Source: Eutreptiella sp. 'Long Island Sound 2002' (Eukaryota; Euglenozoa; Euglenophyceae; Eutreptiales; Eutreptiaceae). Taken from it: a stretch of DNA of 64,000 bases. Position 1 is the stretch's first letter. Each line of letters opens with the position of its first letter. The translations under genes and the position numbers were made by a program. Positions 35,705 through 64,000 of this stretch are shown in pieces. The notes under the pieces were generated by a model, which worked only from the letters and a program-made list of their open reading frames with translations, made no database searches and was not told the origin of the DNA. The DNA lies in NCBI GenBank assembly GCA_964036045.1, contig OZ038389.1:65200953-65264952 (forward strand), read 5' to 3'.

Positions 35705-36295
35705 GCAGTTTCACTGTTGCACAAAAATGACCACAAACCCCCAACAAATCTTTATATTTTCGAAAACACCAATTTTCAACCAATACTGTTTTGGGGATTC
35801 CTCTTGTGCCACCCCAAGCTGCCCAAGGTTTCGCTGTCAACAGTGAAACCCTGGGGTCAGGACTGTGCTGTACTACACTCTGGGCTGTATGCAACCCCTT
35901 ACGCCTGTCTACATACTCCCCTTGGTATGGTGGTGGTGGTTCATTTTGGGCGGGATGGATTATATGAGCACCAAAGTGTGCTTAATAGTGCAGGGTAGTT
36001 TCACTGTCAACACTGAAACTCTGCCTTGCTCCGAAGGATATGACATAGGCAACGGCTGGAGCACATAGCTGTAGGAACTCGATGACCGGAAATAGTTTCA
36101 CTGTTGACAGTGAAACTAGTTGTGATACCGTGGCCTGTGTGTGTGTACTGAGAAAACGGTAACAGGCATCAAGCACTTTCACTGTTGATAGTGAACCTAT
36201 TTCCCACACTGTGGTGTCCAGGGGTAAACAAGGAAAGCAGGTAAAGTGAATTTTATTTTTTGGAAGAGGCCTGTAAAAAACGGAACTAGAAATAT

Positions 36296-36485
36296 CGCCG
36301 GACCGTCGTCTCGTCCAATGGTTATAACCCTCGTGTCATACCACCGGGGGGTGGGTTCGATTCTCGCTAGATCCCCCATCCTAGCCACCCTGTGGCATAC
36401 CACACCAGTACATGGTCACCCATCAGGCATGGTAAGTGCCCCGTTGTAGAGGGGGTACACTACTAGTACTACCAAACCGGTAGTT
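36296..36485 (+). mobile_element. tRNA-derived SINE, copy 1
   Basis: The head is tRNA-like, of the Asp/Glu type: CGTCTCGTCCAATGGTTATA resembles the D-arm/A-box region (36307-36326) and GGTTCGATTCT is a near-perfect B-box (36354-36364). A poorly paired acceptor stem argues against a working tRNA. The tail (gccaccctgtggcatacc, catggtcacccatcaggc, gggggtacactactag) is shared with the SINE at 57.5 kb. RNA polymerase III would start upstream of the A-box. It lies between two palindromes of element 1. Confidence 0.7.
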
Positions 36486-36972
36486 TTTAGACATGTTTTG
36501 TAGTCTATAGTTGACCATGTAGTGAGACACCAAATTTCTAGCCCTGGTTGTAGGAAAAGTACCCCACCACGACTTGGAGGCATCAATAGAGTTGTACCAG
36601 ACCCGTTATATCCTTGTGGCTTCCCTATGGTTGTGGTGCATGGGGGGACAGTGGGGTGCCAAGTGAGGATCTCTTTGACGTTATGCCCCCCCCCCCCCCC
36701 AATGTACTTGCATTCACTCCATTGCCCACCTGCTTTTAGGTGGAAGGCATGCACAGCATCGGATCACAAGGACTTTCACTGTCAACGGCGAAACCACTTG
36801 CCGCTACTTCCTGTTAGGTCCACATGTTGTCTTTCCTCCTCTGCACAAGTTCTATTATTGTACCTGCTGACACCTTCTCACCACTAACTTTCACTGTCAA
36901 TTGTGAAACCACTAGTTGTTGTTTGCTTGTTCTGTCTGTATATGATCTGCCTTTGACGCCTCAGAGGGCAAT

Positions 36973-39038
36973 ATGCCTGACAGCAGTGCCTCCCCATTCA
37001 GTCTACGAGACTTGTGCTCGGGGTTGTATGACGTCTGGACCGGGCTAACATGTACCAAGACGGGGACTCACTGGTGGAGTGCGCTCTAGCGGGGAGGACC
37101 AGCTTTGACTCTTGTGGAGATGGCCCTAGAGTTGCGTCTCAATCCTCGAACAAGACGAAGTATTGCAGAACTGAAGCAAGACTGGCCGAGTCGTGGGTCT
37201 AAGCAATGGCTACTGCGCTTCATGCCTGCTGCGTTCAAGCTCTTCCGCTGCATGCTGGTGCTGGCAAAGCCGATGAAAGTGGCAGGAACGGTCCCCAGTG
37301 CAGGGGTTATGACAACATTGACCAAAGAACGTCGGCTTGAGTTGCGGGGAAGTGGGCTTATACTCCATCGGGAATTACCATTGGCCAACCGGGTTGCCCT
37401 TGCACAAGAGCGGATCCGCCAAGAAATGACACAAGGATGGTATGTGACATGGGCAGACCAGTTTTGCAACAACCGGTATAGCAAAAATCCAGATGGACCA
37501 CGGGACATCTCGTTGTCATGCACTGCCGTCGCTGTCCTCACAGGCCTGTCGGTGAGATTATCGTACGCTATGTGGCCTTCCGCAGAGACATTGACAGCAC
37601 GGGTCAAGGACGTGGCACTGCATATGCGGGACTCGGTCACTGAGTTTTTGACTGTTGTGCAGGACTTGGGATCGGATCCACCGCCCCTTGGTCTTCTTCG
37701 CTGTCCGTTGGATATTCGCCGGGGCAACTCCAAGACTTCATCATGGCAGCCATACGGGTTATGGGACATCGATGTCACCAAGACGGCGAGATTGGGGGGC
37801 GTGTTGGTCCGGTTATTGCAAGACAATTCTGGGAACCGGAACCCAGTGAAGGTATTACTTTGTGACATGAACATATGGTGGAGGGTTGCAAAGGTTGTGT
37901 ACCATAGGCTGATAGGGAGCATGCTGCTTCTCCGTTACGCGGTGCGCTCCGTGACATATGCCCTGTCTATGGGATTTGGCACGCTTACAAGGCGTGTGTC
38001 ACTGCTTTATACGGGGCTTTTTCACCTTTTTGTATCTCCCTGGAGTATGATTGCTTCTTAATGGATCCAACTGCCACACGGGTGTGCCAGTACCCCACTC
38101 TCATTGTCCTCGAGAGGCTCATTCTTTCGTGCTACCTTGTGTATCCCGCACTGCAGTGTCAATTTGACCGTGGCCTCCGGAGTTTCACTGTTGATAGTGA
38201 AAATTCCCTATGGAAGGAGCGCTGGGAGGCCCTGCAGGAATTATTGCAGACTTATGTTCATGATGTCTTGCAGTTAGGTATAATGGTGCATGAATGCTCC
38301 TATTAGGTATAATGGTGCATGACTGCTCCTGGAGACATCGGGCCTCTGGCACTGGTGTTGCAGCACGCAAGGTTTTAGAAGGCAGCCTGTTTCTGCTGCG
38401 GAAGATCAAGCCGACACGTAGTGACGGCAACTATAAAAACACTATCCGCATTGCTCTCCCCAAACGGTGCAGGTAGGTTGCAAAACTTGTTGCACTGTTT
38501 GACCTCAGGCACGGCCCCCTTTGTAGATATCAGAACAGTTGAGATGGAGGATAATCCTAAGGCCGCCCGCGTAACAGGTACCAACATTTGGCCAGACAGT
38601 TTCAAATTTCCATCTGCCCTCATGGACTCAACAAGCCTGGTTGAGTCGGAGTATATCGTGCTGCACCAAAGCCTTCACACTCTGTTTTACCTCTCTGGCA
38701 AAGCGTCTGACAAGGCAGACTGCCGGGTTGTAGCTGATCAGATGATCCAGCACCAGCAACCGCCCCGTGGTCGTGACTAGAGTTCCTTTTTTGATGACTA
38801 TGCAAGAACAGCTGCACACCTACGTGGAATGCTACCACATGATACTATGGCGTTGGCACTGCCCATTTGGGAAAAGGTACCCAGAAAACGCAAAAGAGCA
38901 GATGACGTTGGTGACCAAAACGGGTCTCAGGTAGACTCCGATGATGATGCAGACCTTGATGTTGTGGCATTGGGTGACAATGAGTTGTGCTATGTTGATT
39001 CTGAAAGCGATGACGACAGCTGTATCTTAGTTGGGTAG
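36973..39038 (+). pseudogene. Gene A, copy 1: unfamiliar element protein, frameshifted or spliced
   Basis: The 5' end is ATG 36973 (MPDSSASPFSLRDLCSG). The main block, 37083-37925, has LELRLNPRTRRS, LLRFMPAAFKLFRCML, TWADQFCNNRYSKN, AMWPSAETL and LLRCPLDIRRG. Near 37930 the frame changes and continues CPVYGIWHAYKAC, SLEYDCFL, ERLILSC, an in-frame palindrome (FTVDSE), and LGIMVH; then segments to about 38470 and 38500-38780 (NIWPDSFKFPSALM). It ends in an acidic tail (DSDDDADLDV...VDSESDDDSC) at TAG 39036. Each block has a counterpart in gene A copy 2. The motifs R-Y-S-K, C-P-L-D-[IL]-R-R and G-[IV]-W-H-x-Y-K are conserved. I do not recognise the family. A likely intron starts GTAGGT at 38473. 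Confidence 0.6.
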
Positions 39039-39860
39039 GGCTGGCAATGCTCCGGAACACGGATGTATATTGTGGCTAATGGACCTGTCATACTACCAAT
39101 GGTTGCGGTTCCACACTGTTTCCGCGTACCCCGCGTTTGCTGATGCCTGTGTGTCCAGTGCAATTGCCATCAGGGCTGGGGACAGTGAATGACTTTCACT
39201 GTCAACTGTCAAACACCGGGTGAAGGAGGCTAGAATGTATCACACGACGATTATGCGATGGTGACTTCATAATGACACAAATGGCATACCATCAGAGATC
39301 ACTTTCACTGTTGACAGTGAAGCCCTTGGGAAAGGCGTCCAAAATGGGGGACCGTGCATACGCTGATTGGCATCCAATGCACGTTCTGCGCGCGTGGCAC
39401 ATGATGCTTGTGGTTTCCCTCCTCCCTGCCTGTTGGGGGTTTATGGCCAGCACGATATCACTCATGGTAGTTAATTTGCGCCTTCATTGGGAAAAATTTG
39501 GAGTGCGTTTGGCAAAAAGCGGTTACTGCTGGTGCGGTTTTGAGGCTTCGAAAAGGCTTTGATCACGTTCCCAATCATTGGTGAAACAAGCAACCAAGCA
39601 AGGATGAGACAATCGAATATTTGGTCTTCACACAGAACAAGGTGAACCGAGTATCTGGCATGATGGTGACAAACGAATTCTAGTGCCCTGTTGATAACCA
39701 AAGACACATACTACTTTGAACCAAATGGCCTACAACACACTTTCACTGTTGACAGTGAAACACCGTTCCAAAAGGTGCCTCGGACAGGCAATTTCACGGT
39801 GTTTTGGGCTGTTTTTCTCCTACTTGTGGCTCCTCCTTGCTCTCTGCAGGATCCACTAAA
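39039..39860. other. Spacer between genes A and B of element 1, with three palindromes
   Basis: Contains family-1 palindromes at 39194, 39303 and 39741. The last 60 bases before gene B (a pyrimidine-rich tract ending ctctgcag at about 39850) look like the 3' end of a leader intron that contains the 39741 palindrome. An open stretch at 39345-39562 (HPMHVLRAWHMMLVVSL) is unrecognised. Confidence 0.5.
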
Positions 39861-40261
39861 ATGGGGGACCCCCCTGTGGAGCCCGAGCACCGAGACCAGG
39901 CGGAATCTGGTGAAGTGCTTGCAGATGAGAAACAAGAAGATGACAAACCGGAGTGCAGTTCTAGCGGTGAAGCAGATGCTGATGGTGAGGAAAGTGGTTT
40001 GGGTGAGGAGGAGGAGGAGAGTTCTAAGTTTGGAGAGGAGGAAGAGGAGGAAGTTGAGCCGGAGCAGGATGACGTGACCAGAATACAATCGCGACCGTGC
40101 ATCCTGGAGGGTGGAGACGCAGAGGCTCAGCATTTGGGATGACGAGCAGAAGTACGGTCAGTCACGACGTGTACAGCGCCCCCGCCTCGCAAGACTCCGT
40201 CGCAGTGTCGCCCACCGAGGGCTGATCCACGAGGTCCGCGGTTATCTACTAGACAGAGGAG
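39861..40261 (+). CDS. Gene B, copy 1: acidic N-terminal exon
   Basis: From ATG 39861 (MGDPPVEPEHRDQ), 11 nt after a likely 3' splice site. The product is extremely acidic (ESGLGEEEEESSKFGEEEEE). Frame 0 stops at TGA 40140, but the adjacent frame continues DDEQKYGQSRRVQRPRLARL to a likely 5' splice site GTATAT at 40262, so a one- or two-base indel lies near 40120-40140. The gene B copy in element 2 has the same acidic block (EEEEEEHDDEQEE, HWTDEDAEE). Function unknown; such acidic stretches often bind histones or basic proteins, but that is only analogy. Confidence 0.5.
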
Positions 40262-40401
40262 GTATATGCCCCAACCAGTGCAGGCTTTTGTATCAATTGT
40301 TTCACAGTTGACCTTGAAAGTCTCCTTTCCTGTACCGATTGTTTCATTGTTGACAGTGAAAGTCTCCTGTCCTGTGGCCCCTATCTGCAGGAGACATCTA
40401 G
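40262..40401 (+). other. Probable intron of gene B with two palindromes
   Basis: Begins GTATAT and ends in a pyrimidine-rich stretch with candidate AGs at 40389-40390 (atctgcag) and 40400-40401 (catctag); the second keeps the downstream frame open. It holds family-1 palindromes at 40300 and 40342. The same intron position in element 2 (62658-62795) holds a family-2 palindrome. Confidence 0.55.
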
Positions 40402-40776
40402 CTGGTGCTCGGCGGACAACACATGTGCGCCATTGTCAAAGAACTCTGGCTCGCACTGACATCACCGATTGAGGAGGGGGGTCAAGCTGTAGCTGAAAGT
40501 GATGTACCCCGAGAAATGCGATTCATCTATGGCGTTATACTTCGTGAAGACACACCACTGGAAATCTGCCGCTTTGCCGCCGGCCTGCACCAAAGGGCCC
40601 GGAGGGAATTCTGTGAGACTACTTTCTCTGAGGTGGCTGCGGCATTTCTGCAACGCTATGCTGAAATCGTGAAGAGGACCGACCAGAAGTACGCAACTCC
40701 CGATGCTGGTGAGATCTGGGAAGTGGTTAGAGATGTTGGGGTGCCATACAATGAGTATATGGGCATTGACACAACG
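40402..40776 (+). CDS. Gene B, copy 1: second exon
   Basis: 125 codons reading LVLGGQHMCAIVKELW, SDVPREMRFIYGVIL, FCETTFSEVAAAFLQRYAEI and DVGVPYNEYMGIDTT. The exon ends at a phase-0 splice donor, ACG/GTATGT. Its start motif G-x-Q-H is shared with element 2 (VGQHISSGVRQIFNQ at about 62806). The sequence is mainly helical with no known catalytic motif. Function not recognised. Confidence 0.6.
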
Positions 40777-40865
40777 GTATGTGACAAGCGAGTCTGCACT
40801 TAAAGGGCCGTGTTTCCACTGAGTTTCACTGTCAGCAGTGAAACTACCTTTGTCTTACTCCTCAG
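40777..40865 (+). other. 89-nt intron of gene B carrying a palindrome
   Basis: GTATGT at the 5' end, CTTACTCCTCAG at the 3' end. Removing it joins two open frames in phase 0 (IDTT / QTKAVNEW). The middle is the family-1 palindrome at 40824-40843. This is the clearest intron in the window. Confidence 0.75.
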
Positions 40866-41172
40866 CAAACCAAGGCTGTCAATGAGTGGAGGGGTCTGGC
40901 ACAGTTGTGTGGGATGATACTGGATGTTGGCGACAGGCTCACCCAGGCTGTTGCGGCGTTTGACGAGAAGAAGTGTTTCAGTCATGCTGCCTTTAAGGAA
41001 AGTGCTGGGCTACCGCGGCCGTACTGTTTGGAGTTTTTCAACTGGGTGGCGAGTCCAGGGTCCACAATCAACACCAATACAATCTCCCAGAAGTTCAGAA
41101 ACGTGACGTGCCTCTATCACGTCCGGAGTCATGTGTTCTGCCAAGGCAATCCAGAGATCCATGACAGCCAAC
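40866..41172 (+). CDS. Gene B, copy 1: third exon
   Basis: Continues QTKAVNEWRGLAQLCGM, ILDVGDRLTQAVAAFDEKKC, RPYCLEFFNWVASPGS and HVRSHVFCQGNPEIHDSQ. A possible donor GTATGC lies at 41173; the next acceptor is uncertain. The region 41173-41263 then holds a palindrome (41236). Function not recognised. Confidence 0.55.
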
Positions 41173-41263
41173 GTATGCCTGTAGCCGTCTACTCACATTC
41201 GTTGTTTCCAGAGTCCACTGCCTAACGCCGCACTGTTTCACTGTCAAGAGTGAAACTCCCTTC

Positions 41264-41851
41264 GTGCCTCATTGCAATGCAAGAACCGAGGCCACCGTGC
41301 AGATGCTCTGTAACGCAGTCAAGTGGGATGAGAGGTATTGGGCACTGGGTGCGACAGGCCGCGAGGCAACGAGGTACCGGCTGGGGACTGGTCAACCGAC
41401 ATGGCAAAATTTGCGGAAGGCAAAATTCTGGCAGAACCCGTTGCGCGCTGACACACGCAGGTCACTGTGTGAAGCACTGTGTGCTGAGGAGACCGAAGCT
41501 GGTAGTGGTGGAGCTACATCTGAGGTGGACGGAGTGTGCACTGCTGCCTTTGCTGGAACCCAGAGGACGATCCACTTCACTGGAGACGTGGGCAAGCATG
41601 TGTCTGCCAAGGCCCACCTCCTGTATATTGAAGTCCCAGAAAGAAGTGAGACATCACTTCTGCCGCCGGGATTCGGAAAGAAGCTTGCCGCTAAAGGGGT
41701 CCCTACAATCCTGTACGGTCCAAATGTGAAGTACACCCTGGCGCGTCTGTTCGAAGAGGCTGCACCACTGCGGGAATGGCGGTACACCTGTATGCAGCTG
41801 TACACCCCCCGAGAAGACATGCTGACACAAGCAAAAAGCCTGAATAGTTGA
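41264..41851 (+). CDS. Gene B, copy 1: conserved core segment
   Basis: About 183 codons with blocks KAKFWQNPLRADTRRSL, AHLLYIEVPER, GKKLAAKGVPTILYGPNVKY. These match the minus-strand frame at 63385-63996 (KANFWTQATHQGLRNSL, AHMVYIELGPEE, GGKLVADGTPCIVYGPNAKE), so this is the best-conserved part of gene B. It ends at TAG 41849; whether this is the true end or an intron follows is not clear. The fold is unknown. An acceptor just before ATG 41303 is a possible start for the exon. Confidence 0.6.
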   Translation: MPHCNARTEATVQMLCNAVKWDERYWALGATGREATRYRLGTGQPTWQNLRKAKFWQNPLRADTRRSLCEALCAEETEAGSGGATSEVDGVCTAAFAGTQRTIHFTGDVGKHVSAKAHLLYIEVPERSETSLLPPGFGKKLAAKGVPTILYGPNVKYTLARLFEEAAPLREWRYTCMQLYTPREDMLTQAKSLNS

Positions 41852-42109
41852 CGACACAAACCCTGTGCGCTATCCTGGTGACACCCGAAAGTATTGCACA
41901 GCACCCGCCATACTCTGCTACAAATTTGGAGTGGAGGTCACCGTGGCTCTTGGGATTGTTGGCTGGAGGACTTGTGGTACCAAGTGCACCAGAGCTGCCG
42001 GCAATTGTGGTGATGTTCAGCGCCCTCCGCAAACCGACACAAGTGTATGGGATGACAGCAGCACTGATTGCCTGCTTGCCTGGCTGGTTGTTGAGGCTTT
42101 GGGTACCGG

Positions 42110-42910
42110 ATGCATGGGGAGTGGGGACCGACTCAGTCAAGCAAAACCTGGTGCGGGCTGTACAGCAATGTGCACGGGAACCAGCAGCAGACTTGCAAGC
42201 CGAAGGAGAGCTGTGGCAAGCCGGTGAATGCGCAGCAACTACGCCTACTTGATAAGAACCTTCGACATGAAGTCAAAGCGGCAGAGAAACTAGATCACAA
42301 GAGGCAGAAGTTGGTTCTGAAGCAACGCGAAAAGGATGAACTAGCGGCGGTGAAAAAGTCACTAAAGGAGAATGGTGCAAAGGTTGTTGAACACAGGCAA
42401 GGAAGCCAGCATCAGAGGCTCCTCGACAGCCCATTCGGTGCCAAAACCACTCCAAAAAACCGGACTGTCCGAGGAGGTTTCACTGTTGACAGTGAAAGTG
42501 TCGGTTGTGAAGCTGCCTCATCCAGTGCTGTCGATCTTGCGGTTCATGTGCCCCCAACTGACTTGGAACCAGCTTTCCATGCTGTCAGTGTCGATGCAAA
42601 GCCGGCTCCAAAGCGAGCTCCTGCCAACAAGAAGGCGAAGTCCAAGACCACTGCCAAGACAGGTGCAAAGGGGCAGACTGAGCAGACCACCCTCACTCAG
42701 ATGGACCTGGAGGCTAGGGTGGATGTACAGAGTATTGACAAGGCCCAGCAGTAGGCAATTGTAGCGCAGATTGAGGCTGCCAACAATGCGGGTTATGCCG
42801 GACGAGGAGCTCCAGGGCTGAAACGCAAACCCAAAGCACAAGCCGTGACCATCCCCAGTGTGGCTCAGCTTGAGCAGGCTTCCCGGAGGACCCGCAGTGC
42901 AAAGCAGTAG
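42110..42910 (+). CDS. Lys-rich coiled-coil segment, gene B C-terminus or separate gene
   Basis: The frame reads NAQQLRLLDKNLRHEVKAAE, HKRQKLVLKQREKDELAAVK and KKAKSKTTAKTGAKGQTEQ; it is highly basic and helical. A family-1 palindrome is read in frame at 42478 (GGFTVDSES). A TAG interrupts at 42752 (KAQQ-stop-AIVAQIEA), after which the same frame runs on through GRGAPGLKRKPKAQ and LEQASRRTRSAKQ to TAG 42908-42910. The part beyond the first stop looks genuinely coding, so the stop is probably a recent C-to-T nonsense change. The composition suggests nucleic-acid binding. Confidence 0.5.
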
Positions 42911-43730
42911 GCTGAATGGGAGGACTTGTCAGTTGTGCTTTTTTGAGAACTGCTTCTGGTTGTACTGTTGCTACCGTGACAACGTTTGTTGGTTTGCTGG
43001 GATATCACAGTGTACTTTCACTGTCAATTGTGAAACACACTGCCATAATGACACCTCTGCCCGCAATGCCGGAAACCGGTGTTAGATTTTTTCCTGTCAC
43101 TGCACTGCTCTGTGATGACCTACTGCACAGCTTGGTCCGGAAGTCCACTATGTGCTTTTGTTTTTCAACAGACAGGAACAATCATTTATAAACCATAAAC
43201 TGTACCCTTCAGCCTCTGTCTTGGACTGCATGGACACATGACACTGTCCCTGTATATTTGCACTATACCTCACAGCAGGAGCCACGTACTGTTTATCTTC
43301 TATGTTAGTTTCACCAACAGGGTCATATATCTGGTGTGTTGTTTCCACGTTGCACCTTGGAGTGCAGTATGAAACTCTATTTCACTGTTAACAGTGAAAC
43401 TCTCTCCCTTGCTGATGTCATTTGCTAGTGACAGTATTTTTCATTACGGATATGCTTCTACACATGCAGGTACACTATGTGCACAAGTGCCCTACCTGTG
43501 TTTTGTGTTGCTCCTTTACATACACTCGTTTGTCACAGGGGGAAGTTGTTCGTGGCTGCCCCTGGTCCACAACCGCACATGGGATGGAATGGAGGGGGGG
43601 GGGGGTTCTGGGGATGCCGTCCATCACACCTCTATGCTTCGATGTCAGTTGCTGTTTCACTGTTGACAGTGAAACATTATGAAATATGGCCCCCACAGTG
43701 CAGTTTTGGGAAATTGAATTTTTATGTCAG

Positions 43731-43764
43731 TTTCACTGTTGGCCACACAGGCCAACAGTGAAAC
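43731..43764. repeat. Extended perfect palindrome with 14-nt arms
   Basis: Arms TTTCACTGTTGGCC and GGCCAACAGTGAAA surround a loop of about five bases (ACACA). The outer 10 bases are those of family 1, with GGCC added inside. It is the last family-1 site on the right and lies 56 bp after the standard site at 43655. Confidence 0.95.
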
Positions 43765-44518
43765 TTTTTGCCCGTTTTTGCGGTCCCCGTCGGCCCGGGA
43801 TGTCAGGTTCGTACCCCCAAGATACTTGCTCTGTCTGTGTGTTGACAATTCTATGGCAGCAAATCTGCCAATGTATTTTGCAGCCCAACCCGGGAGGTGC
43901 TTGGATGAAAGGGGGGGGAGTACCCCCCCCTGCTTGTCAAATCCCCTTTAGCCGCTTCTCCGGGGCAGTGGAACGCCGCTAGCTTTTGTTTGCAGACATA
44001 GGTTCAGGTATACACGTAGTCATGTATAGGTAAGGGGTATGGCCGAAGGAGTGCCAGCCATCAGCGCCCCGCGTATAAAACATTTGTAGTGTACATACAG
44101 TCTTTCAATTCCATGTGTGCCCATGAAGCAGTGTAGCATAGCACCAGAAGGGGTAGTCTTACGTTGAGGCCTTACTTACCATGTTCGGCTTTGTGTCGGC
44201 AGCAAGTTCGCAGTTTCGGTTTCGCTTGAACTGCTGGAAGCAGGCCTGGCATGCAAGTTGAACATTGCTTTGCATGTTGTTTCCAGGTACTTTAGCACAT
44301 GGTGAATTGATTGCTCCCTCCTCAAATCTCCCCTGGGGGGGGGGGGGGGGTACTGGCCAGTTCCAAAAGGAAATGCATCAGTGCTATGCGGTGGTTTTCT
44401 GCACCCTCTTGTGCTATATTGCTCCGTTCATATTTCGCAGGACCAGAGCTGTGAGACATTGTTCTCAGAGCTCATGTGCACCTCTGTTTCCCTGATTCTA
44501 CTCTTTAGACCTCTGAAA
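43765..44518. other. Spacer with a TATA-like box and G-runs
   Basis: No exon recognised. CGCGTATAAAACAT at about 44070 resembles a TATA box, and a G14 tract lies at 44335-44350. Either element 1 ends in here or the following unknown gene starts. Confidence 0.35.
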
Positions 44519-45295
44519 ATGTTCCCTCAAGGTATACCAGAGGGTCAGGTGATGGGGAGGTGGTCTGCACATGGTCTGCACCTAGGGGTTGGGCAACACC
44601 CTTGGGGACAAGTCGTATTTTACCGGGGACACTCCGGAGGAAAAGTGGATCCCCAAAAAGCTGGTGGCACTCACTGTGCCCAAGCTTGCACCCAAACGTG
44701 CAGGCGGTGCCGACAGACGGTGCCGTGTGCGACACCGTCCGCTCCCATGTCAGGCACACAGTCAGATACACACAACATGGTGACACCCCTCGTGACACCT
44801 ATTAGAGTACCGGTCAGTGCCTCCCCATTGTGCAGAGATACACCCGCCCGCCTGCTTTTGAATGATCTGGATTTATGCCTCATGGATGAACCTGTAAGTC
44901 GTCAGAGTGGCTCCCTCTCAGAGACCACCGTGTCTTTCGCCTCCACAGAGGATTACATTCAGTCTCAGGCTTCGCAGGACAGTCTACTCACGGCATCAGG
45001 GAGTGAAAACCATTCGGTCCCACGGCCAACCAAACGAAGGCATTTCAACACGCCTAGCCCGGTGCCATCAAGCCCCGCCTCAGTGGAAATACACTCACAC
45101 GGAACAACCATGTACTCACCCAGCATGCCGGCGCGTTCCAACAGACAGCCTGTATACTCGCCACGGCAACCCGCATCGCCTCTGGCGCCAGACACGCCCA
45201 ATTTCTGGCACTGCTCAATATGTGACACTGATTGCTCAGGGCACTCCCCACCAGAGTCACCCACCACCCCGGACTCTGGCTGTTTTGAGATGTAG
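44519..45295 (+). CDS. Ser/Pro-rich unknown protein with terminal Cys cluster
   Basis: 258 codons from ATG 44519 to TAG 45293. The first ~90 codons may instead be read in another frame (DKSYFTGDTPEEKWIPKKLV, 44598-44660), which looks more protein-like, so an indel or splice near 44680-44760 is possible. The remainder reads LLLNDLDLCLMDEPVSRQSG, SFASTEDYIQSQASQDSLL and RPTKRRHFNTPSPVPSSP, a disordered Ser/Pro/Asp-rich chain, and ends WHCSICDTDCSG, a possible zinc-binding cluster. I do not recognise it. It lies 0.75 kb right of the last palindrome and may be a third gene of element 1. Confidence 0.4.
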   Translation: MFPQGIPEGQVMGRWSAHGLHLGVGQHPWGQVVFYRGHSGGKVDPQKAGGTHCAQACTQTCRRCRQTVPCATPSAPMSGTQSDTHNMVTPLVTPIRVPVSASPLCRDTPARLLLNDLDLCLMDEPVSRQSGSLSETTVSFASTEDYIQSQASQDSLLTASGSENHSVPRPTKRRHFNTPSPVPSSPASVEIHSHGTTMYSPSMPARSNRQPVYSPRQPASPLAPDTPNFWHCSICDTDCSGHSPPESPTTPDSGCFEM

Positions 45296-45463
45296 GGGCC
45301 TTCTCCCATGTCTGAATGAACAAGCAAGAAAGCACCTGATCCGCAATTGAATTCGTGGTGACGATAGGGTCTGATTGTCTCTGTACCCCGTCACGCTATG
45401 CCCTTGATTGAGGTCCACCCCATGCCCCCAAGAGGTCCCCCCCCCGGGAGACCTTAAGCAAAG

Positions 45464-45736: not shown

Positions 45737-45855
45737 CACTGTCACTGTGGCTGGTCACGGCTATGTACATAGATAGTGGAGCACCCCAACCAAGAAGGGG
45801 ACACATGGAGCCTGTGTGAATGAACTGCACATGCACGCACTGACGTGATGAACTT

Positions 45856-52133: not shown

Positions 52134-54065
52134 GAGGCAGGGAGTGTCGGGTTTTCGCTTGCCGCGGGAGGGGGAAAAGGGCTCAATTGACAGGACCATC
52201 AATCAGTTATTATGAACTCTGACGCCGAAGGTGCCGAAAATGTTGTTGAGCATTGAAAATGGTCAATTTTTTCACCAAATGCATTGCAATTGATGACTTT
52301 TCTGAACCCCCTCAACGCGCTGATTCCAAAAATCCCATTTTCATTGTTTGCCGAATTCTGGGTCTGGGCCACCTCCGGGCCCAGGGGTCAGTCTCGGTAG
52401 GATTTCGGGGGGCCTGTGAATTGAGCCCTTTTTGGGGGAGGGGGGGGCTCCAGCCAGAGTGCTGTATCGACCCCCCCCCCCCAGCAAATGAATGCGGCCA
52501 ATGCGGCCAGCGGAGGTAGGGTCGAGGGATGAACATCAGTTCGCCGGACACTCAACGAACGCGCCACACGTTGGCATGATGGACAGAAGGCGAAGACAGT
52601 CGCGGGCGCGACCAGGGCCTAATGCGAACACTGCAGGCCCAGCAAACGAAAAAAAACCAAAACAAGCCTGCCCACCCCAGCCTCCGTGTCGTGGGAATTC
52701 ATGGTCGCTTTTTCGCAATATTTTGACGGGGAAATGTGTTGAGATGGGGTGTCATCGAGCAATATTGCACACCCTTGTGCCAAGCAGTTGCCGGTTTGGT
52801 GGTTTGCAGGCCTGTGTGTGAGCCAATGCACTAGAACGGAAGAGTCATCCCCCCCACCCGTGATTTGGCTGCATAATGTGCCTAAGGCGCTTGATGAGCA
52901 AATTTGAGAGGTGGCATTTGATGCAGCACATGCGGCACAGCGGTTATCCCGGCCGTTCCTGGGGTGATCACGGTGCGAGTGCCCATGTGTCATGAGGGGT
53001 GGCTAGAGGGGGGCCTTAGGCCCGCTCTGAGGGGGAAATTAGGTGTTGATTTGCTGTTCAAGATCGAGAGAGAAAACATCCGGGGGCGCCGAGCTTTGGC
53101 CAGGCAATAACTACGTTGGGTCGGGATGACGTTTTGTAATTGCAACAAAAGCACACTCCTGTTTTCTAAAAGGCGGTCAACCCTGGGCAACCCTGAAGGC
53201 TTGGATGCCGCTTGAAGCGGTGTGCAGTGAAGAGGGAAAGCTGTACCCAGCACACAATTGGGTCAGAATACCTGATCAGGAGGGGGTCAATGGATCCCTT
53301 CCTTCCCAGTCAACGTCCTGCTGGCACAATAAACTCCAGGATTTTCAGGATTTTCAGTTCGGCTCCTCAAAAGGTGCCGCCGGTGTGACCCCTGCAATCA
53401 ATCGGCTTGCCACCGGACTGAAATGGAATGGTACCAAGACATGGTTGTCAGATTTCCAGTCAGTCTCAAATGGTACCATTGCGGCTCTTTAACTCTGTAC
53501 CGTTCCTCTGTACTGTGGCTCTATACTCTTGCTCTTTACCCATAAACACACTATGATTAGGATTCAAATGAGTTTGCCATTCATATGGCCAAAGCTTGAA
53601 ATTTTTGCTGGTAGAATTCTCCTTATCGCCCACAAGAAGGTATACAAGAGCCCCATTGATGCAAGGGCCTCTTTTGGGAGGGCATATCAACAGGTCTGCA
53701 TCAGACTCCGAACACGTGTTTGACACAACCCCCTTCAACTGCCATGGTCAGTCTTGGCCACCCCATAATAATTGCTCATGAGCCAAGCTAGTGTCTCAAA
53801 ATGGTCCGGTTGTTTTTCCACCATGATTTGGCTGGCATTGAGCAATACCGCGCATCGTGGTACCATGTGGTGGCCGATTGTAGTGGTCTGAATCAGTTGT
53901 TTTCAGCAGAATGATCGCTAATGTGAAAGGCATCCAATTGGGTTATCATAGAGCAGCCGTGTTTCACCCACAAACCAGGATAGTTATCCTAAAAAGCGGG
54001 ATCGCTGTCATGGAACAGTTGTTTGGCTATGAATTATGAGGACAACAACGATGATGATGGTGTAG

Positions 54066-54072
54066 TTGTTGT

Positions 54073-54130
<58 letters not shown>
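54066..54130. repeat. (GAT)n / (GGT)n trinucleotide repeat
   Basis: About 15 GAT units followed by GGT units, inside a longer Asp/Asn-rich open frame (54023-54331). The open frame is almost certainly due to the microsatellite and its degenerate borders. Confidence 0.9.
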
Positions 54131-54133
<3 letters not shown>

Positions 54134-54726
54134 GGGGGTTCTGAGGATACTGAAGATGATGAGACTGAGGCTGAGGATGAGCATGAGGATGAGGATGAGG
54201 ACAGAGCTAATCATGATAATGATGATAAAGACAACAATAATGATGTTTGCAACAGTATAGTCAATGATGGTACTCATACTATTGATGCCAATGATGATGG
54301 TGACAGCAAAATCAACAACAACCAACAATGATGGTGGCAGTGGTGGCGGTGGTGATGGTGGTGGTGATGATTATCCCATATTTTCCGCAAATAAGGACAC
54401 CCCATGGGTAAAGTGGCAGACCCAATTCTGTGCTACGTGGTTCAGGGATGGACGGTGTTGTGCCCGTGGAAGGTGGAATCCCCTTGGAATTGAACGGAGA
54501 AATTATTGGTGCGATTGGGATCAGTGGAGGTATTGCACGCCACAGAGCGCAGGGGAATGTTGTGGGGTGACCAGGGTGATAAGGGAGAGATGATGGGGGC
54601 CGGCTGTGTTTGTGAGATATTGAGGGGCCAACGTGTGCACGTGAGAGGCGCTAGGGTGTGATAGGGGAGGGATTGTGGATATGATGGGACAGGGCGCTCC
54701 CTGCGGGACGGCTTTGGCTGTTCCTT

Positions 54727-54905
54727 TTTGTTGAGAAAAGCCCGGGACTGCCGCTGGCGGCTACCCGCCAACCGCTGGCAGTTAGTTGCCACCTACTGAC
54801 GGTTAACCCCCAACCGCCGCCGATTAGCCCCCAACCCCCCAAACACCGATGCTGAACCGCCAACCGCCAACAGTTGACGGTCAACCGATGACCGGTTGAC
54901 GGTTG
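54727..54905. repeat. Degenerate CCAACCG/GGTTGAC minisatellite
   Basis: Units of CGCCAACCG and its inverse CGGTTGACGG (54760-54905), next to TTTTTGTTGAGAAAAGCCCG. It is related to the repeats at 17040 and 51769 and includes short inverted copies (GACGGTCAACCGATGACCGG). Confidence 0.6.
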
Positions 54906-55074
54906 TTGACAGCGGTCCGGGAGTGTTCTGTGACAAAGGGGCAGTTTTGGTACGCTTGCTGCTTTGCGCTTTGTTGTTTTCCCGTGCACTTCGGGCCAAT
55001 TCAAAGGGGGTGGTTCTGGTTTTGGACTGCAGTGTAATGGGACAGGATTTGCTGTTTTTCATGTGCCCTCTTGT

Positions 55075-55240
55075 GTGTGCACGTGCGTACGTGTGTGTTC
55101 TTGTGTACATGTGTATTTCTGTGCACATGTAAATTTGTGTACGCGTGTGCACATACGGGTACATGTGTGTGTCCCTGTGTACTTGTGTATTTGTGCGCAT
55201 ATGTGTACACGTGGGTTTGTGCTCATGTGCCTTTTGTGTG
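55075..55240. repeat. Alternating RY tract (GTGTAC/TGTGTG-rich)
   Basis: About 165 bp of mainly tgtgtgtacatgtg-type alternation with interruptions. It has no coding meaning in spite of open frames rich in Val/Cys or Thr/His. Confidence 0.75.
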
Positions 55241-56458
55241 TACAGTGTGTACACCTTGCACAAACAATGCCCGTGCTCATTTGCCGCCACCAAGTTCTGA
55301 GGGTTGCTCTGCTTTTTTTTGGTGGGGGAGGATAGGCGACCATGTCCGTGAGGGTGGGGTATGGGGGGCCAGTCGAGCGCTGCCTTGCCAACGAAAGGAG
55401 AGTGGACCACATCAGATGAACGTGGGGTAGCAGGAGCATGCAGCGGTGTTACATGCATGAGCTCATCAGGCAGGCGCACAAGTGCACGTGAGCCGAAACC
55501 AAAGAGAGCGTAAACCGGGCAGAGACACCATTCCCCAGGCTGGGAACAATGGGAAAGCAGCCAAGCAGTCACGACCAGGCGATGGGGGGAGGGGGGGGGA
55601 GGGACGGACAGTGCCAGAGCTGGCCAGAACTGGCAGAGAGCATGTGACCCAACCGGCGGAAGGGACGGCCAGCCAGCAGCTGGTTAGTGATTTTTGCCAT
55701 GACCAACCCCTGGGTACCCTGTTTCCCGGTAACGCATGCTGGTTGCTCTCCACAAAATGAGGCTGCCCCCACAGTACACATGGATACACAAGTACAGCTA
55801 TCCGTCGAGGGCCTTTTGGTGCGGCTTGCAAAGGGCTGGGCTGTGCTCCATGGGCAATGCTCTGCCCCTAAGTCGGGGTTTACCTCCCTGTCCGCAAGCC
55901 ACCTGCCCCACGCATAATGAATGCCCCTGCATTGGTTCCCTTGCCTCTTGCTGAGCCCACAACTGCCACAGCTGATTTGGTCTTTGCCATTTTCTAGCCA
56001 GTGATTTTTCTGCCCACTCTTCCACTTTGCACTTTGCATGTCATGGTTTTTCATCCCAGCCTCTTGTTTGCAGGAAGCGCCAAAGAAGATGGTGTGGTTG
56101 CTTCTGCTGGTGTGCAAGCACTGCCAAGTTTGTGAAACTCTGCACCTGGGATGCCACCATTGTATGGAACGTTTTTGGCAAGTCCAGTGTTCAGCATGCA
56201 TTATGCATCCTGAATATGTTTTCAGACGTGATATGACAATGCTGACACATCACACCCAAAGGAGGAACACCTAATGAAACACCAAACCACGGTGGGACCG
56301 ACTCTGCGGGTCCTAGGACACCAACTACCCCCCCAAGGGGCCTCCTGCCAACAGTCGGTTGCCAAAGGTGCCGCCCTCAGGAGTCCATGGGCACCGAAGG
56401 TGCCCGATGCTCCGTTGGCACAAAAGGCGCCTGAAGGAAATTTTGCATCCCACTTTGC

Positions 56459-56572
56459 ACCCCAACACTATCCTTAAGCCTAACCCTGATCCTCACGCCC
56501 ACCAACCCTCTGCCTAGTCCTAACCCTACCCCTACCCCTACCCCTACCCCTACCCCTAACCTGAACCAGGAC
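56459..56572. repeat. Telomere-like CCCTAA/CCCTAC stretch
   Basis: Degenerate cctaaccctgatcctc leads into a regular run of ccctac hexamers (about 56527-56562). It resembles interstitial telomeric or subtelomeric sequence. Confidence 0.7.
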
Positions 56573-57535
56573 TGAATATTGGGACCGAGCTCATGGGGAA
56601 AGGACACGAAGAATCACGCTACTTCCCCCCTGAAACCGCCCTCGAAAGTGAATTAGAGCCATTCAAAATGACCTCAAAATAAGCTCTATTCATCTGTTTC
56701 AGTACCTCAAATGGACTAAAATAATTTTTTTGGAAGATGAGCTTTTTGACCCATTTTTGAGCTACTTGTGGTCCCAAAATGGCCCATTTTCAAGGCTCTT
56801 TCGGACCCAAGAGGGTTAAAATTGCTCAAAAATGGGATCATTCTACTTGTTTGTGCACCCCAAATGGTCCAAGATTATTTTGGGGAAAACACACTTTTGA
56901 CCCATTTTTGGTCCCAGAACAGCCCATTTTCAAGGCTGTTGTGGTCCCCTAAAAATCCCAAAATGTTTTGAAAATGGTCTGTTTTGGGACGAAAAAAGGG
57001 TCAAAAGCGGATCAAAAATGTGTTTCGCCGGAAATGATCCTGGAGCGTTTGGGGTGCCCAAACAAGTGAAATGTCCCCGTTTTGAGCCCATTGCAAGCTT
57101 TTGGCCCCTCAAAATTCACAGAATGGCCACCACAGGCTCAAAACGTGCCAAAAAACAATTGTTCTGTCATCCCACGTGGTCTAGGATCATTTCCGAAAAA
57201 AAGTCCTTTTTTTCCCACCCAGTGGACCTTGTTGACTTGTTTTGGCACCCACCTCTTTGGGATCAGGCCTGTTCTTGGTTTGAAGTTGTCCACGGCAAAT
57301 GTGCGCATGATGCCCTTGATGGGCACCGTGACGTGTTCTACTGCCAGCACTACAAGCACTGTGGGAATTCTCTTGCAGGCCTGCAGCAAGGGGAAATGCA
57401 AAGAAATGTGCGTAGGAGGTGCTGTACAGCAATCAAAGAGTGGCCATGACCCGGGAAAGTCTTGTACGTGACACATACGATGCATGAAAAAGTGTTTTTT
57501 TTGAGTGGAAAAAAATGAAAACCGGAAATGCGGTA

Positions 57536-57700
57536 CCCGGTCGTCTAGTGCAGCGGTATGCATGGTGGATCATCAATTGTTGGCGTAGGTTCAATCCCCA
57601 CTATCGTCGACATGGCCACCAGGTGCATATCGCACCACGACATGGTCCCCCACTAAAGGGGCATATACCCGAGTAATACATTTTATGGTCCTACAACATG
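57536..57700 (+). mobile_element. tRNA-derived SINE, copy 2
   Basis: Head CGTCTAGTGCAGCGGTATG (A-box region, 57542-57560) and B-box GGTTCAATCCC (57588-57598), followed by the tail ggccaccaggtgcatatcgc, acatggtcccccactaaagg and gggcatatacccgagtaata. Tail blocks match the SINE at 36.3 kb in the same order, so both belong to one family with a diverged head. Confidence 0.65.
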
Positions 57701-57913
57701 TACACCTAAAGCTGGCCTACCTGGGCCTACCTAAGCTGGGCTACCTCTTGCTGCTTGCCGCAGCACACCGGGCCTAGGTACAGGGGTCTAGGCGTCAATT
57801 AGGGCAATTTTGAGCGGTGGAAACCACCAAAAGTTGGTGGTTGTGGGTGCATTAGGTGCGCTCGAAATCGCGTCTTGAGCCACGTGGTTTGGGGCTATCG
57901 GCGGCCAATGTGC

Positions 57914-58906
57914 ACAAATTCTGGGCCTTTTGGGGGCCTTTTGGGGGCGGTTTGCGGGCATACCGTGGAGTTAGAGGGCCCTAGAGGGCCCTTCGGCGCA
58001 GGGAAGTCTAGCTGCATGTGTAGTGTAGCCACTGTTTCCCTTCATTTGGCCGTTTTCAGCACGTTCTAGGGCGGTTTTTTTTTGGGGGGGGAGGCTGATT
58101 TTGGCCCTAAATTGCAGATTTTGTAATGGAGGTCCGGCACTTGCGACGCCCGTTCCCGGCCACCACCGTTGAATTTTTGGCTCATACTTTGTGTGGTTGT
58201 CCCTCACACCCATAGGTAGCATCCACCAAAATTTTGGCCAAAGCACCACAAGGGAGCTGTGATTTTCCTCCATTTCGTGTGTGCTTGCTGCTTCCTTGCT
58301 GCTTGCTAGCCTGCTGCTTGCCAAACCTTTTAGGTCCGGCCTAGACACCAAAGAGGGTTACAAAACCAAGACTGGTTCCACCAGCTCGGTGACTCTGACC
58401 CTAGCCTAGGGTTAGAGCTAGGGCTAGTGTTAGGGTCACCGAGCTGGTGGAACCAGTCTTCGTTTTGTTACCCTTTTTAGGGCCTAGGGTGGACCTACCA
58501 AGCTTAGCAAAGCAGCAAGCAGCAAGCAGTAGCAACAACAAGCAGGCATGAAATGAACAAACTCTGTAGTGCTGCTTTGGATTCGGCTGAAATTTTCGTG
58601 GATGATACCCATGGATGTGAAGGACGATCACACCCAGTCCGAGCCACAAACTCAACGGTTGTGGTCGTGACCGGGTGTCGCGAGTGATACACCCAAGTTT
58701 CAAAAAATGCCATTTGGGGCCAAAAACAGCCTTTTTTTGCCCAAACCGCCCCAAATCCTTTTCAAAATGGCCAAACGAAGGGAAATGGTGGCTACACTCC
58801 ACGTGCAGCTTGACTTCCTAATGTCAAAGAGCCCTCTTGGGCCCTCTAACTCCACAATATGTCCCAGAAACGACCCCGAATGGCCCCCAAAAGCTACAGA
58901 ATTTGT
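57914..58906. repeat. ~1-kb foldback: long imperfect inverted repeat
   Basis: Arms of about 480 bp (57914-58393 and 58435-58906) are inverted copies of each other. Matching anchors, left and right inverted: acaaattct; gtggagttagagggccc; gtgtagccac...tttccctt; agggcggttt/ggggcggttt; caccgttgaatttt/aaccgttgagtttg; catccac.aaaatttt; and the near-perfect inner ~40 bp around ggttccaccagctcggtgac. The 41-nt centre is ccctagcctagggttagagc-like. No coding frame. It resembles a foldback transposon or a tail-to-tail repeat pair. Confidence 0.88.
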
Positions 58907-59335
58907 TACTCCATGGACTTCTATGTTGTCCAGCCTTGTCTGTTCACCTGTTCACTTGAGTGTGCGCTTTCTGCATTTTGCGTTGCACTGCTTTCATGTT
59001 ATACCTTGGTGCCCTTCACGACACAGGCCTTGTCGATGTATGCTTCCCGTCCCATTGTAAACACATGTTCTCTTGTGTTCTTATCAGCATACACCGAAGA
59101 CTGTTGTCCCAGGTATTTGTATGCCGTCCTCTGCATTAGTATCCTGTTTGGTAAACGTTGCAACATAGATCAATGTCCACCCTGTTGGGGTACTGTTCTA
59201 TTGCTGGCAGTAGAATACATAGCGATGCGTTGAGTCCTATCAATAGTGTGTACAACAGGTACATCTGTGGAACTCTACCAACATGCGACATGTTCTGTAC
59301 GTTGGTGTACCACTGCCGGACCACCTCACCATAAG

Positions 59336-59394
59336 GTGAGACTTGTTCTACTCCTGACAGTAGAAGCTCTCCTGACGCTGTGGTTTTCTGCTAG
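59336..59394 (+). other. 59-nt leader intron of gene A, copy 2, with a palindrome
   Basis: ATAAG/GTGAGA at the 5' end, TTTTCTGCTAG at the 3' end, six bases before ATG 59401. The family-2 palindrome at 59345 starts nine bases after the donor. In copy 1 a palindrome (36889) also lies shortly before the ATG, upstream of an acceptor-like cctcag. Confidence 0.65.
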
Positions 59395-59400
59395 ACACCC

Positions 59401-61656
59401 ATGTCCTGCACCCTGCCCTCCGGTGCCATTGACTTACATATGTGGCGTAGTCTCCTTAACATGGAGACCCCCTATCAATCCGCTGAGGATCTATGTGGGG
59501 ATGCTGTTGATGGCAATCGGGCAAAACTCTTGGTGGACTTCTGCATGCAGCTGCGCATCAACCCCAAGACCATACGGCAGAACTCTTTGAACAACTTCAA
59601 GGAAGACCGGGAGGACCGAGGGCGGAAACATTGGTTACGGAGGTTGATGCCTACCATCTTTATGCTATACCGTACCCTGCTTAAGCTTAGCCATCAAGAT
59701 ACTGCCCGTGCAAGCCTGCCTCAAGACACATCAAGGGTTAGCAAACGGGTTCGTGTTCAGCTTGCCGCCTGCGGTTTGCTGTCAAGTCGTCAGGCGTCTG
59801 TGGCGACCCGGGTAGATATTAGTGAGCAGGAGGTGCTACGGATGTTGCAAAACAGGGGGGGAACACTTGTTGCCTACGTAGATCAGTTGAACAAAGCCCG
59901 GTACTCCAAAACCCGGCCACTCGACGCCACATATCATTGTCAACAATAGCAATGGCACCTGCTGGTAGTTTGAGGGGACATTTTGTGGGGCACCCCATGC
60001 CTGACTCCCTGTATAGTGATGTGGCTGAGCATGTTGTCCTTTACGGCGGCGACAAAGCACCTTGTGTGTAAAAACATAGGTTTAGAGGAGGTACGGTGCC
60101 CGTTGGACCTTCGCCGCAAGGACGTTGAGGTTACTCCATGGTACCCCTTAGCTATTAGGGATGTGCCTATCTGCGCAACCTTTGGGTTTCACCAGGCCAC
60201 GTATGGCGTACTTCAGCTGGCTAACACTGTTCAGCACCAATCTTACCGATGTTATGCGACATCACGATATACTACAGCTACTTGAAAATGTTGTACAGCT
60301 ACTGGATGCAGCCACTCCCGCTGCGCCATGTGTATGGCTCCGTTTGTCCTTTGTTCGGTGTCTGGCATCCATATAAGTACTGTGTTGATCACACGTACAA
60401 TGCTTTCGTTCCATTCATGGTGGCACTTGAATACGAAGGGTTCCTTCAAAACCCAGCGGCAAGACAACTATATGCATATCCTCCCTTTATTGTTAAGGAG
60501 CGTCTTATTTTGGCTATTTATCTCTCCATACCAGGTATCCATGTTCACTTACATTCGAATGCTCGCAGTAGAACACTTAAAGATAAGTTGTTAGCAGGGC
60601 TATACCGACTTGTTTTCCATTATGCCCCAGCCCTACTTCGTCTTGGTATTATGGTGTGCGATGGTTCGTGTTACCACCATACACCCGGTACCGGTGACGC
60701 AGCCAAGCGGTGCCTGCAGGTTTCTCTTTACTTGATTCAGAAGTTATGCCCACAGCACAAAGACGGTGGTTGCAAGCGAGCTTTGCACTTAGCACTACGA
60801 ATGTGGTCTCCATACCCCTCTTCCCTTCCTGCATCTGCCTTTGTGGAGGAGAAGGGGGAGGCCCTGTTGTCCCGTTTGGCACGGGCAGTGGGCGAGGACA
60901 CCAGCATTACCAGCGTTGATGACTACCACAATGTTTTTGTTACCTTACGCCACCAGCAGCCCGGTGTTCGGAAGCCCCTAACAAGCCCCCACATCACCCG
61001 CGAGTCACCATGAGCTGTGAGCATGCATCTTACACGGTTGCCATAATGCATTCATGCTGGTACTGTGCCGTCTGTTAAAACGATGGCTACTCTGCCACGG
61101 CCGGGTGCCCGGGCTGCCAATGCCCTGCAGGCTACTATGCAGTGGCCGGAGGACCCTGCCTTTCCACCGTGTTTCAACACCCGGGTGGCGGATGCGACCT
61201 TGCTGTATGGTGCATGCCGTTCACTGCTGTTTTTTTTAGTGAGACAAAGGTAGAAAGTCAGCCTAGGTTTGATGCATCCAGGGCGCATCTACCCCGCGAC
61301 GCGGCCACGGTGCCTGTGCACCCTGTGTTCCGCGAGTTCAAGCAACGGTTCATGAACTTCCGTGCCCATTTTGGGTATACACACCCACACCCCTTCCCCG
61401 CTGACGGAGATGTTGTGGGGGATCCGGACCCCCGGACACGCCGGCAGGGGGGGGGGGGGGGCTCGGTGTCCCGCCCCAAGTTGTACCCTGGCCTGTTGCG
61501 GCAGACTGTGCACCACGGAACCCTATGGGTCCTGTTGTGGATGGTGATGATGCCACTAGCAGCGATGCATCATCATCCGATGTATCGAACTTGACGTATG
61601 CTATTGTGGACAGTGACACCTCGGAAGGGGTTCACAGTGTGACTGTTATCGATTAG
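59401..61656 (+). pseudogene. Gene A, copy 2
   Basis: Starts at ATG 59401 (MSCTLPSGAIDLHMW). Blocks in order: MQLRINPKTIRQ, WLRRLMPTIFMLYRTLL, AYVDQLNKARYSKT, then a frame change near 59935, VRCPLDLRRKD with WYPL (60095-60150), another change near 60245, CPLFGVWHPYKYC, ALEYEGFL, VKERLILAIYL, LGIMVCDGSC, LHLALRMW, and further 3' segments (MATLPRPGARAANA, 61083 onward; REFKQRFMNFRAHFGY) with a G16 tract at 61447-61462, to the acidic tail DGDDATSSDASSSDVSN ending at TAG 61654. Some frame changes may be introns; others look like indels. The order matches copy 1 throughout. Function unrecognised. Confidence 0.6.
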
Positions 61657-62314
61657 CCCCACTGTTTTACTGCCAGCAATAGAAGACTGCGACCATGCTC
61701 GGTCCCCCCTTGTAAATGCATGGCATGCATATGCGGTGCCGGTGTGCACTGCTTTTGTGTGTTATGTGCATGGAGTTTGCAAAGTGTTTTACAGCCAATA
61801 GTATAAGGTACTTTGGGTAACTGTGATGTACTATACCCCAATGTCTATTGCGTGGTGCGACGTCCCTTTTGTACAACACCCGTTCGGCATGGAGTTTATA
61901 TGTTTTCCACAGAAAATGACTGCCTGATGTTCTACTGTCAGCAGTAAAATGTGGTACGAAGTAGCAATCGGGAAACATAATTCGGCCTCTGAGATGTAGG
62001 TTTCTGTGTGGGTTATGAGTCTTGAAAACCGTGTTTTAGTGAAACGTTGTAGGCCTCTTCTACGGCACAAGCAACAAGGACGGTGCCATTTCTATTCTTG
62101 GAAGCAACGCCTGGGGTTGTTGTGTGTGGATACACGTGATACACGGAAGCTTGAATCTGCAGGGTCCAGCTACGTAGGGGACACACCAAATGACTGCATG
62201 AAGCAATGTACCAAAACATAGTGTGAACAGTGCCGAATTTGCCTGTAACTTAGGCCATTTGGGCCCTTTTTTTGCTTTCTCTGTACATCTACCCATGGGA
62301 CCAGTTGTAGTCAA

Positions 62315-62657
62315 ATGGTTTCTGATGATGGCAGTGCTCGCGGGGGTGCGCAGGATACAGGGCCGCCTGCTGAAGCACCCCCCCCCCCCCCCTCAAAAAC
62401 TTCCCGTGCCCCAACGTTCCGTTGCTTGAATCTTCCGCGGACCTCTCCGACGACGAAATTGAGGAATTGTGCATCGATGCATCAACGGACCCCAGCAGTG
62501 GCACAAGACCGGACCGGGATGCGGAGCCAGCAGGCGATGACTATGAGGAGGAGGAGGAGGAGCATGATGACGAGCAGGAGGAGACGGACAGTGGAGGTGA
62601 AGAGACATTGGACGCGACACAGCATTGGACCGACGAAGATGCCGAAGAGTGCAGCAA
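62315..62657 (+). CDS. Gene B, copy 2: acidic N-terminal exon
   Basis: From ATG 62315 (MVSDDGSARGGAQDTG) a C16 tract (62377-62392) shifts the frame; the acidic part then reads SSADLSDDEIEELCIDASTD, DDYEEEEEEHDDEQEETDSG, HWTDEDAEECSN. It corresponds to the acidic exon at 39861 in element 1. A donor-like GTCGGT at 62658 ends it, followed by an intron with the family-2 palindrome at 62669. The C tract is either hypermutable or a disabling change. Confidence 0.5.
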
Positions 62658-62795
62658 CGTCGGTTGCCTTTTACTGCTGACAGTAGAAATCACTTCCGAT
62701 TTGTGCACTGCTGATGGGGGGCAGCTAGAAAGTGGTTGCTACCAATTTTTTGGAGATAGTAAAAACATGTGCTTTGTTTGTTCACGGACTCCAGG

Positions 62796-63329: not shown

Positions 63330-63384
63330 AATGGGACCAGAAGTTCATACCACGAGCGGAACATCGAGGTGCGCCATAGGTAAT

Positions 63385-63996: not shown

Positions 63997-64000
63997 CAGG

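Follow-up and report, generated by a model that had tools for sequence, protein, structure and literature searches.

Why should two transposon copies in one stretch of a euglenophyte genome each carry their own family of dispersed 20-bp palindromes? The stretch, referred to throughout as the window, comprises 64,000 nucleotides of Eutreptiella sp. 'Long Island Sound 2002' (contig OZ038389.1, here C12, positions 65200953-65264952; assembly of 2.28 Gb in 2205 contigs), and it shows eukaryotic-type gene structure, including apparent introns of the GT-AG kind, together with scattered repeats. An earlier note, made from the letters alone, had described the two copies, termed here E1 and E2, with genes A and B, and had proposed that the palindromes are either sites for a coevolving element-encoded factor or small insertable units. 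Both families are present far beyond chance expectation. A third lineage, E3, carries a third palindrome type in the same genome. As judged from sequence, the coevolving factor appears well supported by the three lineages with three types, by the clustering of each type with gene A of its own lineage and by the fixed positions of the sites, whereas the insertable unit is not supported.

Type-1 sites, of the approximate form TTTCACTGTYRACAGTGAAA, number 18 in E1 between 35829 and 43674. Across the 16 arm letters, 17 of them have no more than 2 mismatches and one, at 40300, has 3. The pattern search returns 30 strand-matches against 0.01 expected, and none of 100 shuffles reaches 30. Nineteen copies had been claimed; 18 stand, and what lies beyond them is a half-site at 35709 and a hairpin at 43731-43763. 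Type-2 sites, approximately TTCTACTGCYRGCAGTAGAA, number 7 in the window at ≤2 mismatches (0.00 expected), in agreement with the "about seven" originally counted, and E2 adds 7 more beyond the window (64020-66809, ≤3 mismatches), giving a total of 14. The shared inner and differing outer letters described earlier extend to all three types, each being a 20-bp palindrome with inner CTG-NYRN-CAG. The sites of the window, located by pattern search except where another source is given and listed without strand, are as follows.

35829..35848, type-1 site
35999..36018, type-1 site
36096..36115, type-1 site
36177..36196, type-1 site
36774..36793, type-1 site upstream of gene A
36889..36908, type-1 site, 64 bp ahead of the gene A start
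38183..38202, type-1 site within gene A, reading FTVDSE (pattern search and translation)
39194..39213, type-1 site
39303..39322, type-1 site
39741..39760, type-1 site ahead of gene B
40300..40319, type-1 site with 3 mismatches, in a 42-bp tandem repeat
40342..40361, type-1 site, in the same tandem repeat
40824..40843, type-1 site within an inferred intron of gene B
41236..41255, type-1 site, likewise within an inferred intron of gene B
42478..42497, type-1 site within gene B coding sequence, reading FTVDSE (pattern search and translation)
43016..43035, type-1 site
43380..43399, type-1 site, a perfect palindrome
43655..43674, type-1 site
43731..43763, type-1-like hairpin with 14-bp arms and a 5-nt loop, near the E1 right end (from the sequence)
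57336..57355, type-2 site left of a nested inverted-repeat insert
59196..59215, type-2 site
59346..59365, type-2 site, 35 bp ahead of the gene A start
60554..60573, type-2 site within gene A, reading SNARSR, one codon from the place of E1 site 38183 and in the same frame (alignment)
61665..61684, type-2 site
61930..61949, type-2 site
62669..62688, type-2 site in the gene B N-terminal region

Within E1 the pairs 36889/43016 and 36177/38183 carry the same rare variant letters, at which relatives differ.

The third lineage was reached through database protein P0021 and is described from two loci, L036 and L037, picked out of 77 scored gene A matches, among which 45 are stop-free in the matched stretch and five share the same score. 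Copy L036 is 6975 bp long and is bounded by perfect 25-bp inverted repeats, CTTAGGCCACGCAAACTGCCCGCCC, with a CCAAA duplication; the partial copy L037 is 98.3% identical to it over 5298 aligned columns, the match breaking off at the same right end, and the lineage looks young. Its palindrome type, GGTGCTGGNNCCAGCACC, occurs 12 times in L036 at ≤3 mismatches and in none of 20 simple shuffles. Genome-wide, on the forward strand, matches exceed those of the reversed pattern for every type: 2760 against 105 for type 1 (3 mismatches), 367 against 2 for type 2 (2 mismatches) and 620 against 5 for type 3 (1 mismatch). The type-1 20-mer has no exact match in viral contigs.

Are the types confined to their lineages? 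At ≤2 mismatches, 12 E1-type loci hold 5-18 type-1 sites each and neither type 2 nor type 3, while 12 E2-type loci hold 3-15 type-2 sites each and no type 1. The absence of mixing between types 1 and 2 asserted by the earlier note is thus borne out in these loci. The two E3 loci hold 9 and 3 type-3 sites, respectively, and no other type. Because site clusters guided the choice of the E1- and E2-type loci, counting by locus is partly circular, a circularity of which the comparison of sites with gene A is free. This comparison used the first 100 positions of each site list and the best-scored gene A matches (77 for E3, 128 and 71 in the other lists), with 16 E1, 6 E2 and 10 E3 entries on C1 for the type-1 test and 48 E2, 77 E3 and 16 E1 entries for the tests of types 2 and 3. 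Among the matches listed, palindromes cluster with gene A of their own lineage and, in the pairings compared, never with that of another. An E1 gene A match stands within 9 kb of 48 of the 91 exact type-1 sites on C1, and an E2 or E3 match near none of them, the 91 sites forming 29 clusters of which 12 hold a listed E1 gene A. For type 2 the corresponding values are 31 of 63 near an E2 match and 0 of 63 near an E3 or E1 match. For type 3 on C1-C3, 18 of 43 sites are near an E3 match and none near an E2 match; conversely, 18 of the 24 E3 gene A matches listed on these contigs have an exact type-3 site nearby.

The positions of the sites within the element are also fixed. Seven of the 12 E1-type loci were aligned, L012-L016 being excluded as rearranged or short, and sites were accepted at ≤4 mismatches. 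Wherever covered, the 18 type-1 sites occupy the same columns in all seven copies, with the sole exception of one L019 site lost within the 42-bp tandem repeat, and no clean gain is seen. Noncoding sites diverge less than the remaining noncoding sequence (6.8% vs 10.3%), a value as low being reached by 1 of 300 random placements. Across lineages, the site within gene A lies 91 nt upstream of the codon for the LGIMV motif in 4 of 6 E1 copies and 88 nt upstream in 5 of 9 E2 copies (exceptions include L010, 89 nt, and L027, 86 nt; the codon was not located in L018 of E1 or in L026, L033 and L034 of E2). The frame is the same in E1 and E2 and letters are altered in both arms, the encoded peptide being mostly FTVDSE in E1-type copies and STASSR, SIAGSR or, in the window, SNARSR in E2-type copies. 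In E1 and E2 the place of this site thus seems to have been inherited and its letters rewritten, the outcome that a changing binding protein would give.

The palindromes reside in elements whose structure is that of DNA transposons. E1 is a full-length two-gene element with terminal inverted repeats (TIRs) of 22 bp, CTTGGGGGTAYGAACCTSACAT, and its ends at 35654 and 43821 are common to several copies on C1, where eleven 10-kb stretches had been picked at clusters of exact type-1 sites. The half-sites at 35709 and 43731 were considered as ends of E1 and dropped because the copies place the ends elsewhere. The two elements originally recognised stand, with corrected bounds: E1 extends from 35654 to 43821, as defined by its inverted repeats, and E2 continues to 66978, outside the window.

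35654..43821, + strand, E1 (ends recurring in C1 copies; TIRs)
35649..35653, no strand, E1 left target-site duplication (TSD) GTACT, sharing 4/5 letters with the right copy ATACT
35654..35675, + strand, E1 left TIR CTTGGGGGTATGAACCTCACAT (inverted-repeat comparison)
36973..39038, + strand, E1 gene A, a frameshifted copy with DDE-like motifs; open frames of 754 aa in other copies
39861..42910, + strand, E1 gene B, exons with inferred GT-AG introns and an acidic N-terminus
43800..43821, - strand, E1 right TIR (inverted-repeat comparison)
43822..43826, no strand, E1 right TSD ATACT, beside the right TIR

In E1 copy L009 a deletion (equivalent to window 39767-40288) starts just after one type-1 palindrome and stops just before another, which suggests recombination between sites.

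E2 is rearranged, with gene B partly inverted, and no left inverted repeat was found in 54-74 kb (window coordinates). The ends of its lineage, read in eleven type-2 loci and E2, begin CTTGGGGGTGCAAAGTTACC.

57336..64000 in the window, + strand, E2; right TIR at 66959-66978 beyond the window, left end not found
59401..61656, + strand, E2 gene A, a broken copy whose joined reading shares 36% identity with E1 gene A
62422..62730, + strand, E2 gene B, acidic N-terminal part, assigned by resemblance
63335..63876, - strand, middle part of E2 gene B, inverted within the element (sequence comparison)

A long inverted repeat with 79% arms (57914-58906) is nested in the left part of E2 and has a relative, inverted, at ~67.6-68.6 kb in window coordinates; a 42-bp tandem array (62907-63319) adjoins the inverted gene B part. 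Elsewhere in the window, LINE-like (long interspersed nuclear element) open frames occupy 2110-10177 and match the endonuclease/exonuclease/phosphatase family weakly (PF03372, E 3e-4, below cut-off), and a satellite of 45 copies of a 46-bp unit with 97% matches occupies 27206-29278.

Twelve loci with both ends (6 E1, 5 E2, 1 E3) give 8 exact 5-bp TSDs, 2 with 4/5 letters and 2 with none. For E1, duplications are exact in L009, L010, L013 and L016 and agree in 4/5 letters in L011 and the window copy; for E2 they are exact in L025, L026 and L027, the last when the first TIR letter is taken as mutated, and do not match in L030 and L033. TIRs with a target duplication of fixed length are the arrangement of DDE cut-and-paste transposons, and the best reading is that E1, E2 and E3 are diverged lineages of one two-gene DNA transposon group with TIRs starting CTT and 5-bp TSDs. 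Gene A of all three lineages shares WxD(N/Q), a second D, GxWHxYK and EExGExLLSR, a pattern like that of a DDE transposase, with no Pfam match above cut-off. Scans of both genes against Pfam, NCBIfam and PHROGs yielded nothing beyond a weak PHROGs signal described below, PDB sequence searches gave weak unrelated matches only, and AlphaFold2 models were poor, with a mean predicted local distance difference test (pLDDT) score of 32.8 and 42.0 in two jobs. Database relatives comprise 10 proteins for the joint E1/E2 gene A profile, one being the window's own, 7 for E1 gene B and 4 for E2 gene A. The gene B sequences of E1 and E2 can be recognised as relatives. The homology of E3 gene B is tentative: six of its pieces, used as tblastn queries, had no match in E1 or E2 at E 0.01, so that the case rests on gene order and an alignment of joined pieces (21-25% identity). 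No description of this group was found in the titles or abstract openings surveyed, which is not proof of novelty, and the group may be undescribed.

What, then, are the palindromes for? We consider it probable that in all three lineages they are sites for a dimeric element-encoded binder whose specificity has shifted together with its sites and which acts on the whole element. Each lineage would keep roughly 12-18 copies of its own palindrome across the element, and these would be bound by a protein that is most likely the gene B product, otherwise the gene A product. The bound protein would most likely act on the element as a whole, at the level of chromatin or expression, much as VANC proteins do on the VANDAL elements treated below, because sites are found all along the element body, introns and coding sequence included, and its action would be confined to its own lineage.

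The closest precedent, by analogy, is the anti-silencing system of the VANDAL elements of Arabidopsis, which are Mutator-like. It also makes the earlier statement that no described transposon has such a feature too strong. VANC21 binds the 9-base motif YAGTATTAY in noncoding parts of VANDAL21, motifs are often in tandem repeats, VANC6 has other motifs, and the domains named for VANC are DUF1985 and DUF287 (PMC5735166; PMC10398659). The likeness lies in short motifs that are repeated over the element, are specific to each family and have changed together with its own VANC (PMC5735166), and a difference in motif between related lineages is likewise found here. The systems differ in that VANC binding has been demonstrated whereas the palindromes are putative sites, and in that the latter are 20 bp long, at fixed places and partly coding (38183, 42478 and 60554 are coding, the others noncoding) rather than 9-base noncoding motifs (PMC5735166). 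In the A and B sequences scanned, Pfam gave neither DUF1985 nor DUF287 nor a Mutator transposase above cut-off.

Several observations weigh against a lineage-specific binder of this kind. Some sites are coding and most are single, in contrast to the noncoding, often tandem VANC motifs. Conservation is modest, since the 20-bp flanks of sites are intermediate at 8.1% divergence and coding sites, at 6.1%, are hardly below other coding sequence (6.5%). For about half of the exact sites no gene A match from the lists is nearby, and a single type-3-like match (1-2 mismatches) occurs in each of 5 of the 12 E2-type loci. E3 is known from two read loci, and its gene A site is near the same place, 107 nt before the LGIMV codon, in another frame. 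Finally, Pfam gives no DNA-binding domain above cut-off in A or B.

The strongest competitor, to which we give a clearly smaller though appreciable chance, is that the transposase itself assembles on the palindromes, which would be required in cis for excision. The short E1 derivatives L013 and L016, which have both ends and an exact TSD and no full gene A, keep 12 and 11 type-1 sites, respectively, which speaks for such a requirement and also for the element-encoded binder; a third, L015, has one end found, 11 type-1 sites and no full gene A. A separate recognition site is also possible because the TIRs do not resemble the palindromes. However, the palindromes are not restricted to the ends, occurring also in introns and coding sequence. 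In CACTA (En/Spm) elements, TnpA sites are subterminal, the layout is two-gene, the termini read CACTA and the TSD is 2-3 bp; a soybean case is reportedly known. The repeated short motifs and the two-gene layout are shared with the elements described here, in which, by contrast, the sites are dispersed, the ends read CTTGGGGG and CTTAGG and the TSD is 5 bp.

A more specific and doubtful proposal is that gene B is ParB-like and the palindromes are parS-like nucleation sites, a partition-type clamp having been turned to transposon self-recognition with its code rewritten at least twice. By eye, the start of gene B resembles the ParB N-terminal domain, and a ParB-like family of PHROGs weakly matches an E3 gene B query (E 0.03; 0.033 with a longer query) and not two other queries; no ParB match to gene B was found in Pfam, NCBIfam or PDB. 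A genome search with PF02195 returned 10 matches, of which none coincides with a gene A copy in the lists, but this search proceeds exon by exon and the region is divided by an inferred intron. Most tests being negative, the domain is only hinted at. The parS consensus is TGTTTCACGTGAAACA. Compared by eye, type 1 agrees with it in the outer TTTCAC/GTGAAA only, and types 2 and 3 differ. ParB_N matches above cut-off do occur on the small contigs C1696, C1801, C1228, C1262, C953, C2055, C1235, C1386 and C324, and these are possibly bacterial contamination of the assembly. In algal transposons, ParB-like accessory proteins are described for Ectocarpus Sola1-1 and are proposed to bind their own element, to which extent the cases are alike; there a DNA methyltransferase domain is present and the string 'palindrom' has 0 occurrences in the text (PMC12477816), whereas a ParB domain in gene B is not established here.

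The remaining explanations we regard as very improbable, and to an equal degree. Small insertable units spreading inside each element would account for the many near-identical copies and for the two E1 pairs sharing rare variant letters; the fixed places in seven E1 copies, with one loss in a tandem repeat and no clean gain, together with the gene A site, whose place and frame E1 and E2 share, disfavour such self-insertion and favour a factor encoded by the element. RNA hairpins in element transcripts would fit the self-complementarity of the palindromes and the excess of G-U over A-C mismatches on the sense strand (21 v 13 in E1, 80 v 64 in E2, 101 v 77 overall), but this excess is small, site centres occur in both orientations and sites also lie upstream of the genes. 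Sites for a host silencer or activator, exploited or suffered by the elements, would be distributed over the element body as observed, yet three mutually exclusive types in three lineages of one genome are not expected of a host factor.

With three lineages and three codes, and with a gene A site whose place and frame are common to two of the lineages, the coevolution of a transposon protein with its DNA sites would be directly testable in this group, for which genes and sites could be swapped between lineages. If the sites act by anti-silencing, self-recognition through dispersed motifs would exist outside plants and outside Mutator elements.

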